Below, in pieces: positions 4,621 through 8,605 of a DNA stretch of 64,000 bases. The position numbers and the translations under genes are program-made. Source of the DNA: Aneurinibacillus aneurinilyticus ATCC 12856 (GTDB taxonomy: Bacteria > Bacillota > Bacilli > Aneurinibacillales > Aneurinibacillaceae). Position 1 is the stretch's first letter; each line of letters begins with the position of its first letter. The notes beneath the pieces were generated by a model. The model did not search any database. It worked only from the letters and a program-made list of their open reading frames with translations, and was not told the origin of the DNA. The DNA lies in assembly GCF_000466385.1 (NCBI RefSeq), contig NZ_KE952782.1:1-64000 (forward strand), in the 5' to 3' direction.

Positions 4621-5940
4621 TTAATCCAGCACTTTTCCTTTGGTTTCCGGTACGCATATCAACATCGTGATAAGACCGATTGGATAAATTAAAAAAATTA
4701 ATGACATCGCTCCAAAAAGGCTTCCGCCAGTTGCCAGTATCCCAATAATTACAGGACCGAATCCAGCCAATCCACGTCCTGTACCGAAGATGAAGTTCTC
4801 TGCTGTTGAACGGGCTTCTGCCGGATAGTTTTCTGCTAATACAGCTCCGAATCCGCCCATCATGCCATTAGCGAAAAAGCCGAGTAATGCGCTTCCCCAT
4901 AATAATAAGGTGGCATCCTTGAGTAAGAAGAAATAAACCAAGCAGTACACCGTACCGCCTATATAATACAGGGTAAATGTTTTTCGGCGTCCAATTTTAT
5001 CAGCCAAGAAACCAAATACTGCAATTCCAATCAGCATGCCAATCGTGGAAATAAACATCCAGCCACTGGCCTTTGCTAATGTATAGCCATACTTATTGGC
5101 CAAGATGGTAGGCATCCAGGTAAAAATCCCATAATACCCGAAGTTTTGAATAAACGACATGATAATTAATCCAATTGTTGTAATAGTGATTTGTTTATTT
5201 GTAAACAATTTGCTCAGAGGAAATTTCTTCATGCCTTCCAGTTGTGTGGCTTCTTCTGCTGTTAAAGTACCTTGTATGGCCTTCATCTGTAATTGTTTTT
5301 TATATTGCTGCTTCTTTTCCCACAGTTTTGGTTCGCTTAAGCTTTTACGAACGTATACTGCCAGTAGTGCCGGAATTAATCCGAATAAGAATACAGCCCT
5401 CCAGCCGAAATATGGAACGATTAGAGCTGGTAATAACGATGCGACCAGCACCCCGAATTGCCAGCCTAATGCTACAACAGAGGTTGCTTTTGCACGCATA
5501 TCTTTTGACCATGTTTCCGTTACAATTGCCATCCCAATTCCAAATTCCCCGCCGACACCCATGCCTACTAAAAATCGAAGAAATAATAATTGCCAATAAT
5601 CGGTTGCGAAATAAATAAGTGCAGTGGCTACGGAGAATAATAAAATCGATACAGCCATAGTTCGAATCCGGCCGAATAAATCAGCTAGAAATCCGAATAA
5701 ATAAGATCCCACCAGCATGCCGACTGTTGTAGCCAGTGTAAGATTGCCGCCCTGTGCAGGCGTTAAGTGAAACTCCTGCAAAATGTACACGAGCACAAAG
5801 GACAGTAACAGCATATCCAGTCCTTCTGCTGCGTAGCCAAGTACAGAACCAAACAGCGTTTTATACCGTTTCGACCTGGATTCAACTACAGCTTCTTTCG
5901 TTTTTGCTGGTACATACTGCACTTCGTCTGTCACATTCAT
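4621..5940 (-). CDS. MFS transporter, organic acid/aromatic acid type
   Basis: A 439-aa, 12-helix major facilitator with six predicted helices, a charged central loop (KKQQYKKQLQMKAIQG and on) and six more. Both signature loops are present: GFLADLFGRIRT after helix 2 and GFLADKIGRRKT after helix 8. It most resembles the proton symporters for carboxylates and aromatic acids (AAHS/sialic-acid-like and NiaP-like group). The substrate cannot be read from sequence. ATG 5940 is preferred over 5943 because GGAGG then lies 7 bases upstream. The gene stands alone behind a structured leader with its own promoter and terminator hairpin, so a small molecule or protein probably controls it at the RNA level. 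Confidence 0.8.
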   Translation of the reverse strand: MNVTDEVQYVPAKTKEAVVESRSKRYKTLFGSVLGYAAEGLDMLLLSFVLVYILQEFHLTPAQGGNLTLATTVGMLVGSYLFGFLADLFGRIRTMAVSILLFSVATALIYFATDYWQLLFLRFLVGMGVGGEFGIGMAIVTETWSKDMRAKATSVVALGWQFGVLVASLLPALIVPYFGWRAVFLFGLIPALLAVYVRKSLSEPKLWEKKQQYKKQLQMKAIQGTLTAEEATQLEGMKKFPLSKLFTNKQITITTIGLIIMSFIQNFGYYGIFTWMPTILANKYGYTLAKASGWMFISTIGMLIGIAVFGFLADKIGRRKTFTLYYIGGTVYCLVYFFLLKDATLLLWGSALLGFFANGMMGGFGAVLAENYPAEARSTAENFIFGTGRGLAGFGPVIIGILATGGSLFGAMSLIFLIYPIGLITMLICVPETKGKVLD

Positions 5941-6115
5941 CATTACTCCTCCTACTATTCACATACAGTCGCTATGGAAGAATAATAAAAGCCTTCTCAC
6001 CTTAGCAGGCAAGAAGGCTAAATAAACATAATAATCCCTACAAAAAGGATTCGTACGTTTAATCCGGCTTCCTTCTCAACCTCACGGGGCTGTGTTAAAG
6101 GACTGTAATAGATTT
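5941..6115 (-). ncRNA. Structured leader with terminator, candidate riboswitch or attenuator
   Basis: The approximately 175-base untranslated leader of the MFS gene contains a terminator hairpin (AGCCTTCT 6012-6019 with AGAAGGCT 5990-5997 on the minus strand) followed by TTTTATTATT. An upstream segment GAGAAGG (minus, 6071-6077) can pair with the first terminator arm CCTTCTT, so the two folds exclude each other. A further stem GGATT/AATCC brackets a CGTACG-containing loop (6048-6065). I do not recognise it as any riboswitch class I can recall. It could also be a protein-binding attenuator. Confidence 0.5.
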
Positions 6116-6121
6116 GTTTTA

Positions 6122-6150
6122 TTTGTAACATTCTTTTGGCCTATTGTCAA
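6122..6150 (-). promoter_or_regulatory. Promoter of the MFS gene
   Basis: On the minus strand TTGACA (6145-6150) and TACAAA (6122-6127) are separated by exactly 17 bases. This is a good vegetative sigma-A promoter that would start RNA near 6115, upstream of the structured leader. Confidence 0.65.
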
Positions 6151-6177: not shown

Positions 6178-6272
6178 AAAAAGGCTAAGGGATGTAGCAA
6201 CATCTCTTAGCCTTTTCGAGTAATAAAATTTAGATTCTGATTATATTTGGAAAATACGCTCAATTTTCTCGA
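6178..6272 (-). ncRNA. Candidate small RNA between divergent genes
   Basis: A minus-strand promoter (6279-6307) would start an RNA near 6272 that ends at a very strong terminator. The terminator arms are GGCTAAGAGATGT and ACATCCCTTAGCC (6183-6212), followed by TTTTTCTTATTT. No gene on either strand needs this terminator, because both neighbours point away and have their own promoters. The approximately 95-base RNA has no ribosome binding site or convincing ORF, and TCGAG/CTCGA can close its 5' domain. Its function is unknown. Confidence 0.4.
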
Positions 6273-6637: not shown

Positions 6638-8605
6638 ATGACTAACAGTCTTAGGAAAAAACTAACGTATGTGATGTGCATATTGCTTATTGTGAGTCTT
6701 GCCTCGGTTTTTGTAGCGAGCTATTGGAGTTCTTCACGGCTTCTGGAAACTAGCTTGAATAAAGAAGCTGAACTGGGAGCGGACAACCTATCGCTGAAAA
6801 TCGATCAGTTTTTCCAGAAGAAAATCGCGATTATCGAAACGGTAGGTAAACTAATTTCTGGAGAAAAAGAAAAAGACTTAGAATTGATTCAGCAGGCTCA
6901 GAAACAAAATCCTGAGTTTGAAACATTTTTCTTCTCTTACGATTTGAGCGGGAAAAAAGTTATTAACTTCAAAGGTGAAGAGACAGACGTTTCTGATCGT
7001 TCCCATTTTCGGGAGGCTGGAGAAGGGAAAGGGAAGATTGTTGTATCTGAACCAGTCGTTTCAAAGCGAACAGGCAATAACATCGTTACTATTATAGTAC
7101 CGTTGATGAGAAACAACCTACAGTATGGTTATATGGGATCAACTATCCCGATTAACGAAATTCAGAAAACAGTTGCTGAAGAGAAATTTAGCGAGCATGG
7201 CTACGCTTTTTTGGTTAGTAAAAAAGGGAGTTATATCTGGCACCCGCAAAAGGAACTTATTTTAAAGGAATCGGTGCTCAAGTCAAACATTCCGGAGATT
7301 CAAACTGCTTTTAACAAGATCCAAAAAGGCGAGCAAGGGGTAATCCAGTATCATAAAGACAATGTGGAACATATCGCTTCTTATGCTTCTACTTTACAAA
7401 ACTGGGGTGTATACATCACTGCACCGACTAAAGAACTATACGCTCCAATTACGAAGCTCTCTCTAAATCTAATTGTGATTTCTGCATTAGCTTTGATAAT
7501 TAGTATCGGTTTGGTTTATCTGCTTTCAGTACAGCTTGTCCGACCCATCCAAAGACTGAATCGAGCGGTCAAGGGAGTTGCCGAGGGTGATTTAACAAAT
7601 ACATTAACCGTACATGGAAAAGATGAAATTGCAGTGCTTTCCCACGATTTTAACAAAACAGTAGCTCACCTGAAGGATTTAATTCAGGGTGTCACAGTAT
7701 CATCGGACCAGGTACTAAAGGTGACCGGTGAAGTATCTACAGGTATTGAGAGCGCAATGAACAATGTTCGCCAAATCAATTCCTCTGTCCGCCAGATTGC
7801 GGAAGGTGCAAAGGTGCAGGCTGCCAGTTCACAGGAGGTAGCTATATCGATGAACGATATGGCAAGCGGAATAGTGAAGGTGGCAGAGACATCTTCTAAG
7901 GTGTCTGAATCGGCTCAAGAGGCGACCCAGCAAGCAGAGCAAGGTACAACTGTGGTCGAGCAAGCCGTGAAGCAAATGAATAGCATAGGTGAAGGAGCGA
8001 CAAAGGCGGCATCTGCTATTGAACGTTTAAATGACCGTTCCAAAGAAATCGAAGCAATTTTGGATACCATCACAGGACTAACCTCCCAGATTAATCTGCT
8101 TGCACTGAACGCCTCAATTGAAGCGGCGAGGGCAGGTGAACACGGCCGAGGTTTTGCAGTCGTAGCCGGGGAAGTAAAGAAGCTGGCAAATCAATCCGAA
8201 GAGTCAGCAGGAAAAATAGCAGAATTAATTAGCGAAACCCAGCAAGACACGTTCAATGCTGTAAATGTGATCAACTCAAGCAGCCGGGATGTACAGGCTG
8301 GCATCGAACTTATTGAAGAAGTACGCATGAAATTTGCAAATATCCTAAACGCGTCGCGCAATGTAGCGGATCATATTCTCGAAGTGTCGGCCGCTTATGA
8401 GCAAATGTCAGCAGGTTCCCAAGAGGTAAGTGCTTCTGTAGAGGAAATGAACCACATTGCCAAACATGCGTCTGAAGACACAAAAAATGCGGCCAATGCT
8501 ACCGAAGAACAAAACTTAGCAATCGAAATTATTTCTAATTCGGTTCAGGAGTTAAAAGATGTTGTTGAAGAGCTGCAACAGAAGCTAGGAAAGTTCAAGC
8601 TTTAA
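6638..8605 (+). CDS. Methyl-accepting chemotaxis protein (dCache receptor)
   Basis: A 655-aa transmembrane chemoreceptor. It has an N-terminal membrane helix (about 10-30), an extracellular dCache-type sensor (about 40-270, with FFFSYDLSGK and SDRSHFREA typical of Cache domains), a second helix (about 275-298), a HAMP segment (about 300-352), and the methyl-accepting helical hairpin. The hairpin tip (INLLALNASIEAARAGEHGR) is the CheA/CheW contact. No ligand is predictable. GGGGAGG precedes ATG 6638. It sits directly behind a c-di-GMP-I riboswitch and upstream of a secreted PheC-like binding protein that may be a ligand partner, which is inference. Confidence 0.93.
   Translation: MTNSLRKKLTYVMCILLIVSLASVFVASYWSSSRLLETSLNKEAELGADNLSLKIDQFFQKKIAIIETVGKLISGEKEKDLELIQQAQKQNPEFETFFFSYDLSGKKVINFKGEETDVSDRSHFREAGEGKGKIVVSEPVVSKRTGNNIVTIIVPLMRNNLQYGYMGSTIPINEIQKTVAEEKFSEHGYAFLVSKKGSYIWHPQKELILKESVLKSNIPEIQTAFNKIQKGEQGVIQYHKDNVEHIASYASTLQNWGVYITAPTKELYAPITKLSLNLIVISALALIISIGLVYLLSVQLVRPIQRLNRAVKGVAEGDLTNTLTVHGKDEIAVLSHDFNKTVAHLKDLIQGVTVSSDQVLKVTGEVSTGIESAMNNVRQINSSVRQIAEGAKVQAASSQEVAISMNDMASGIVKVAETSSKVSESAQEATQQAEQGTTVVEQAVKQMNSIGEGATKAASAIERLNDRSKEIEAILDTITGLTSQINLLALNASIEAARAGEHGRGFAVVAGEVKKLANQSEESAGKIAELISETQQDTFNAVNVINSSSRDVQAGIELIEEVRMKFANILNASRNVADHILEVSAAYEQMSAGSQEVSASVEEMNHIAKHASEDTKNAANATEEQNLAIEIISNSVQELKDVVEELQQKLGKFKL

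Follow-up and report, generated by a model that had tools for sequence, protein, structure and literature searches.

Predicted PyrR-dependent attenuation of an MFS transporter gene in Aneurinibacillus aneurinilyticus, with orotate as a probable substrate

In Bacillus subtilis, UMP-bound PyrR stabilises an anti-antiterminator comprising the sequence ARUCCAGAGAGGYU, letting a downstream terminator form, and sites of this type (RF00515, PyrR binding site) are read by the protein with bound UMP/UTP (PMC7430163). We analysed a 64,000-nucleotide stretch of the genome of Aneurinibacillus aneurinilyticus ATCC 12856 (the window; contig NZ_KE952782.1), in which an MFS transporter gene is preceded by a leader that the original prediction had described as unidentified, possibly a riboswitch, with a conserved part matching no known class. 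That description proved wrong. When the window was scanned with the full set of 4227 Rfam models, the covariance-model search that the prediction itself had proposed as a check, the leader fell in a known family, the PyrR binding site, at a score modestly above the gathering score (Table 1); a match of this sort was what the prediction had named as its refutation. We consider it nearly certain that the element before the MFS gene is a PyrR attenuator. Attenuators of this kind are already known and the switch itself is textbook; the target gene is the new information, and the value lies in annotating an otherwise generic “MFS transporter.” Weaker Rfam matches nearby (BTnc201, rli60, MIR529, and EF3314_EF3315) were far below gathering and were taken as chance.

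Table 1. Features of the attenuated MFS locus in the window, and tandem PyrR-like sites found elsewhere
Feature	Coordinates	Strand	Description and basis
Whole attenuated unit	within 5941-6150	minus	Promoter, leader, terminator, Shine-Dalgarno sequence, MFS gene
Promoter of the MFS gene	6122-6150	minus	-35 TTGACA (6150-6145), 17-nt spacer, extended -10 TGTTACAAA ending at 6122
PyrR binding site and attenuator, whole element	5984-6105	minus	RF00515, 57.5 bits (gathering score 54); full model (positions 1-115 of 115)
Anti-antiterminator hairpin (PyrR site)	6070-6102	minus	Lower stem UCCUUU/GAAGGA, upper stem CAGCC/GGUUG, loop CCGUGA
Apical stem-loop of the antiterminator (variable)	6023-6061	minus	Contains CGTACG; RF00515 alignment, folding, and comparison
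Intrinsic terminator	5990-6019	minus	In the antiterminator, its 5′ arm is paired to GGUUGAGAAGG (6081-6071)
Shine-Dalgarno sequence GGAGGAG	5946-5952	minus	Read directly from the sequence
Start codon of the MFS gene	ATG 5943-5941, or next ATG 5940-5938	minus	Read directly from the sequence
MFS transporter gene (440 residues)	4621-5943	minus	Fold and family profiles; substrate inferred from relatives' context
Tandem PyrR-like sites, locus L133	10409-10470	minus	Attenuator, then second site overlapping the Shine-Dalgarno sequence
Tandem PyrR-like sites, locus L134	8938-8975	plus	Attenuator, then second site near the MFS start

The leader resembles the Bacillus pyr attenuators in its loop and stem sequence, in its anti-antiterminator/antiterminator/terminator architecture, in the presence of PyrR in the genome, and in the occurrence of further sites before pyrR, pyrP, and pyrC. 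It differs from them in controlling a stand-alone MFS gene, not pyr biosynthesis or a uracil permease, and in its upper stem, where AGCCC replaces ARUCC. This U to C change is the sole departure from ARUCC and preserves pairing (U-G becomes C-G); the loop, AGCCCCGUGAGGUU, otherwise conforms to the loop/stem pattern ARUCCNGNGAGGYU. A single copy of the core motif is present in the window, against 1.4e-7 occurrences expected from base composition, and the same anti-antiterminator hairpin is found in 17 other PyrR leaders. Since the stability of this hairpin relative to shuffled sequences is unremarkable (z = -0.9), it is the covariance model, together with the core motif and comparison, that carries the argument. 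The stretch earlier singled out as conserved, CCCCGTGAGGTTGAGAAGG, corresponds to the loop and stem of the PyrR site, in a variant form of ARUCCAGAGAGGYU, and the CGTACG loop that had been counted with it lies in the antiterminator's apical stem, which is poorly conserved. Conserved sequence in a structured, terminator-bearing leader would also be expected of a new riboswitch class with direct sensing of the transporter's substrate; however, the conserved part here is the PyrR site, which this genome also has in its pyrR, pyrP, pyrC, and codB leaders, rather than an aptamer domain separate from the known protein sites, and the middle of the leader is poorly conserved. On the strength of the RF00515 match and the common PyrR core this reading was rejected, and its probability is very small.

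Folding of the PyrR attenuator gave three competing states. The terminator hairpin comprises 13 pairs (-21.1 kcal/mol) followed by UUUUAUU, none of 200 shuffled sequences being equally stable (z = -5.6), and ends approximately 32 nt 5′ of the Shine-Dalgarno sequence, consistent with the placement of a terminator just ahead of the ribosome binding site. The duplex of GGUUGAGAAGG with the terminator 5′ arm has a calculated energy of -14.2 kcal/mol, and in a transcript halted in the terminator loop the minimum-energy fold is the antiterminator (-27.2 kcal/mol), a state that excludes both the PyrR hairpin and the terminator; forcing the PyrR hairpin in this halted transcript costs 0.9 to 1.6 kcal/mol, varying with the way of enforcing. 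For the complete transcript, the fold contains the PyrR hairpin alongside the terminator (-44.5 kcal/mol). The same three-state folding is seen in five orthologous leaders, with a cost for the PyrR hairpin of 1.8 to 7.7 kcal/mol. The upstream segment pairing with the terminator arm and the transcription-attenuation reading, both part of the original prediction, were thus borne out. The proposed comparison of homologous leaders before MFS genes likewise yielded covariation: in the terminator stem of six sequences, three pairs show two-sided compensatory changes and none does when the partner is slid by 1–3 columns, but as this count was reached by 25 of 500 shuffles with only six sequences, the support is moderate. 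The PyrR hairpin is nearly invariant among the leaders, as expected for a protein site, and covariation there is therefore limited.

PyrR is predicted to bind the MFS leader, whose transcription would begin within a few nucleotides beyond 6122. At low UMP/UTP, GGUUGAGAAGG would pair with the terminator 5′ arm and polymerase would read into the MFS gene; when UMP/UTP is plentiful, UMP-bound PyrR would hold the hairpin 6102-6070 and block the antiterminator, whereupon the terminator 6019-5990 would fold and transcription stop. By this PyrR-UMP termination mechanism the transporter would be made in pyrimidine shortage, alongside the pyr operon and codB, and imported orotate, or a near neighbour such as dihydroorotate, would be converted to UMP via PyrE and PyrF. 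The locus is very likely a PyrR-dependent attenuator of the B. subtilis type before an importer of a pyrimidine precursor, most likely orotate. The assumption that the ligand would be tied to the transporter's substrate holds insofar as regulation as part of the pyrimidine pathway hints at what the transporter probably carries; the signal itself, however, would be UMP sensed by a protein rather than a substrate recognised by the RNA. MFS proteins operate both ways, and direction is not fixed by sequence, so that the product might instead export a pyrimidine intermediate or toxic analogue. PyrR, however, shuts genes off at high UMP, just when an overflow exporter would be needed, and relatives in putative degradation clusters (below) would require import. 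Export is accordingly improbable, and we are fairly confident in predicting that the product is an importer of a pyrimidine precursor.

The promoter of the MFS gene had been called a clean sigma-A promoter; a promoter is present, but “clean” is slightly generous because the -10 hexamer (6127-6122) of the extended -10 element (TG-T-TACAAA) matches the consensus at only four of six positions. The TTGACA -35 element is kept in the orthologous leaders, and an extended -10-like element is found again in them, in G025 only loosely. The leader length of approximately 170 nt agrees with the claimed length of approximately 175 bases, and family profiles confirm an MFS transporter as the downstream gene.

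The genome encodes PyrR (269.5 bits against a cut-off of 138), and PyrR sites stand before pyrR (63.1 bits), the cytosine permease gene codB (50.8 bits, below gathering), and pyrC (43 bits, below gathering), with a further PyrR core before pyrP; the MFS gene therefore belongs to a predicted PyrR regulon. A cytosine-deaminase-like gene, judged by eye, follows codB. In B. subtilis, PyrR also controls a uracil permease. The PyrR hairpin before pyrP (L092, 2690-2752) lacks a terminator, and the Shine-Dalgarno sequence (AAGGAAGGAG), close ahead of the ATG, lies in its 3′ strand; this suggests that at pyrP, PyrR acts on translation and not by attenuation. On the same genome's contig C263, pyrB is absent from its usual place between pyrP and pyrC. 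An aspartate carbamoyltransferase is encoded on contig C54 (340.7 bits), where no PyrR site was reported, and a missing pyrB was thus ruled out as the cause of a need for an importer.

The leader is kept in five orthologues with 84–94% identity, namely those of G005 (94%), A. tyrosinisolvens (90–91%), Rossellomorea sp. BNER and Bacillus pakistanensis (85–86%), and G025 (84%), which together with the window form one clade (support 97/100). The G005 leader carries an insertion of approximately 126 nt in the antiterminator apical loop (L006, 2908-3033). This segment is a dispersed repeat, with 27 matches in G005, five in the window's genome, and none in G007; it landed in a regulatory RNA whose predicted three-state fold is kept. 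Counting against this picture, four Paenibacillus orthologues (78–80% identity) lack both a PyrR leader and any pyrimidine neighbour within 6 kb, as a relative with 43% identity (L132) likewise lacks leader and pyrimidine neighbours; these genes may be under other regulation, or may serve a broader range of substrates.

Searching 398 genomes from the class for MFS relatives turned up proteins with 38–40% identity in G290, G214, and G187, with PyrR leaders immediately upstream (60.7, 58.8, and 58.8 bits, respectively), which places predicted PyrR control of the MFS subfamily in two distant branches. In G290 and G214 another PyrR-like site comes after the attenuator, close to the start codon of the MFS gene (Table 1); that of G290 overlaps the Shine-Dalgarno sequence, but it scores only 43.9 bits and alone folds without clear structure. 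PyrR linked with an MFS orotate transporter was not found in the literature searched, which is weak evidence of novelty given that most subscription journals lay outside its coverage; the present results would extend the PyrR regulon to a transporter family for which the papers searched gave no such link.

The best profile for the MFS protein is TIGR00895 (aromatic acid/H+ symport), which matches residues 23–403 with 288.4 bits. As this score lies below the curated cut-off of 418.55 bits, we filed the protein only as a related MFS protein; it further differs from the TIGR00895 transporters in the pyrimidine gene context of its close relatives, and a PDB sequence search returned general MFS relatives only. 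OroP, the orotate transporter of Lactococcus lactis, is plasmid-borne in lactic acid bacteria. It has in common with the MFS protein the predicted substrate only and, by its assignment to TC 2.A.7 (PMC12802215), is not an MFS protein.

No pyrimidine gene adjoins the MFS gene in the window, and the substrate is approached through the context of relatives. The Brevibacillus orthologue (71–73% identity) comes after carA-carB-pyrF-pyrE, an operon with a PyrR core upstream, and in several Brevibacillus genomes the next genes encode a PucR-type regulator, a hydantoinase/carbamoylase-family amidase, PyrK, PyrD, and a dihydroorotase/allantoinase-like enzyme. The same PyrK-PyrD/amidase/dihydroorotase-like set, in varying order, accompanies relatives in G047 (71%) and Megamonas (60%), and in Alicyclobacillus, Sulfobacillus, and others (41–48%); at L046 no dihydroorotase-like gene was detected adjoining the transporter. 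A PyrR leader and pyrimidine markers are both absent from six paralogues (37–39%) beside GlcD-type (glycolate-oxidase-type) genes, and no proteobacterial relative (25–29%) has a pyrimidine marker. Together, the PyrK-PyrD/dihydroorotase-like/carbamoylase clusters resemble orotate degradation: running in the catabolic direction, their enzymes would convert orotate to dihydroorotate, carbamoyl-aspartate, and then aspartate. This route is the classical orotate fermentation of Clostridium oroticum. The dihydroorotate dehydrogenase of that organism is of class 1B, according to the title of a reference cited in PMC9326563, and the relatives' clusters are alike in combining a class-1B-type PyrK-PyrD with a dihydroorotase-like enzyme and a carbamoylase; unlike in C. 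oroticum, the pathway is deduced from gene content, and the clusters are found in relatives and not beside the window's MFS gene. They nonetheless mark Brevibacillus, Alicyclobacillus, Sulfobacillus, and Megamonas as genera with candidate clusters for orotate degradation.

The cluster amidohydrolase scores as both allantoinase and dihydroorotase, and the amidase as allantoate amidohydrolase/hydantoinase-carbamoylase, scores that would also suit a PyrR attenuator before a transporter of another substrate, whether dihydroorotate, N-carbamoyl-aspartate, uracil/uridine, or a hydantoin/allantoin-type ring. For uracil there is the PyrR-controlled permease of B. subtilis and the presence of pyrP in the window's genome; pyrP and codB, however, already serve uracil and cytosine there. 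Dihydroorotate dehydrogenase is the top-scoring identity for the recurring PyrK-PyrD pair (377.8 bits against 140.6 for PreA), favouring orotate or dihydroorotate, and the family is near aromatic-acid carriers, orotate being an aromatic acid. A substrate other than orotate is therefore a real but lesser possibility, and orotate is, on this context, the single likeliest substrate, a choice we favour without regarding it as firm. The PyrR site and the conserved neighbours together thus yield a definite substrate prediction that can be put to the test, namely orotate or a closely related pyrimidine precursor. With somewhat better than even credence, we propose that these proteins form a previously unrecognised MFS subfamily of orotate permeases across Bacillota, serving either orotate degradation beside PucR-/IclR-type regulators or PyrR-controlled pyrimidine salvage, the latter in two distant branches, of which one has an additional PyrR-like site close to the start codon.

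Three further features of the window were observed. Between the MFS promoter and a c-di-GMP riboswitch lies a near-perfect hairpin (6179-6217; -22 and -24 kcal/mol on the two strands, z about -7) flanked by A and T runs; it is likely to be a terminator working in both directions, or a remnant of such a terminator. The riboswitch (c-di-GMP-I, RF01051, 6463-6552, plus strand, 90.2 bits) is followed by a terminator-like hairpin and stands upstream of a dCache-HAMP methyl-accepting chemotaxis gene (6638-8605), an arrangement of known kind. At 67-1000, the overlapping frames 67-633 and 359-1000 resemble, by eye, a single ABC exporter gene with a frameshift and a deletion, and read like a pseudogene or a sequence error.
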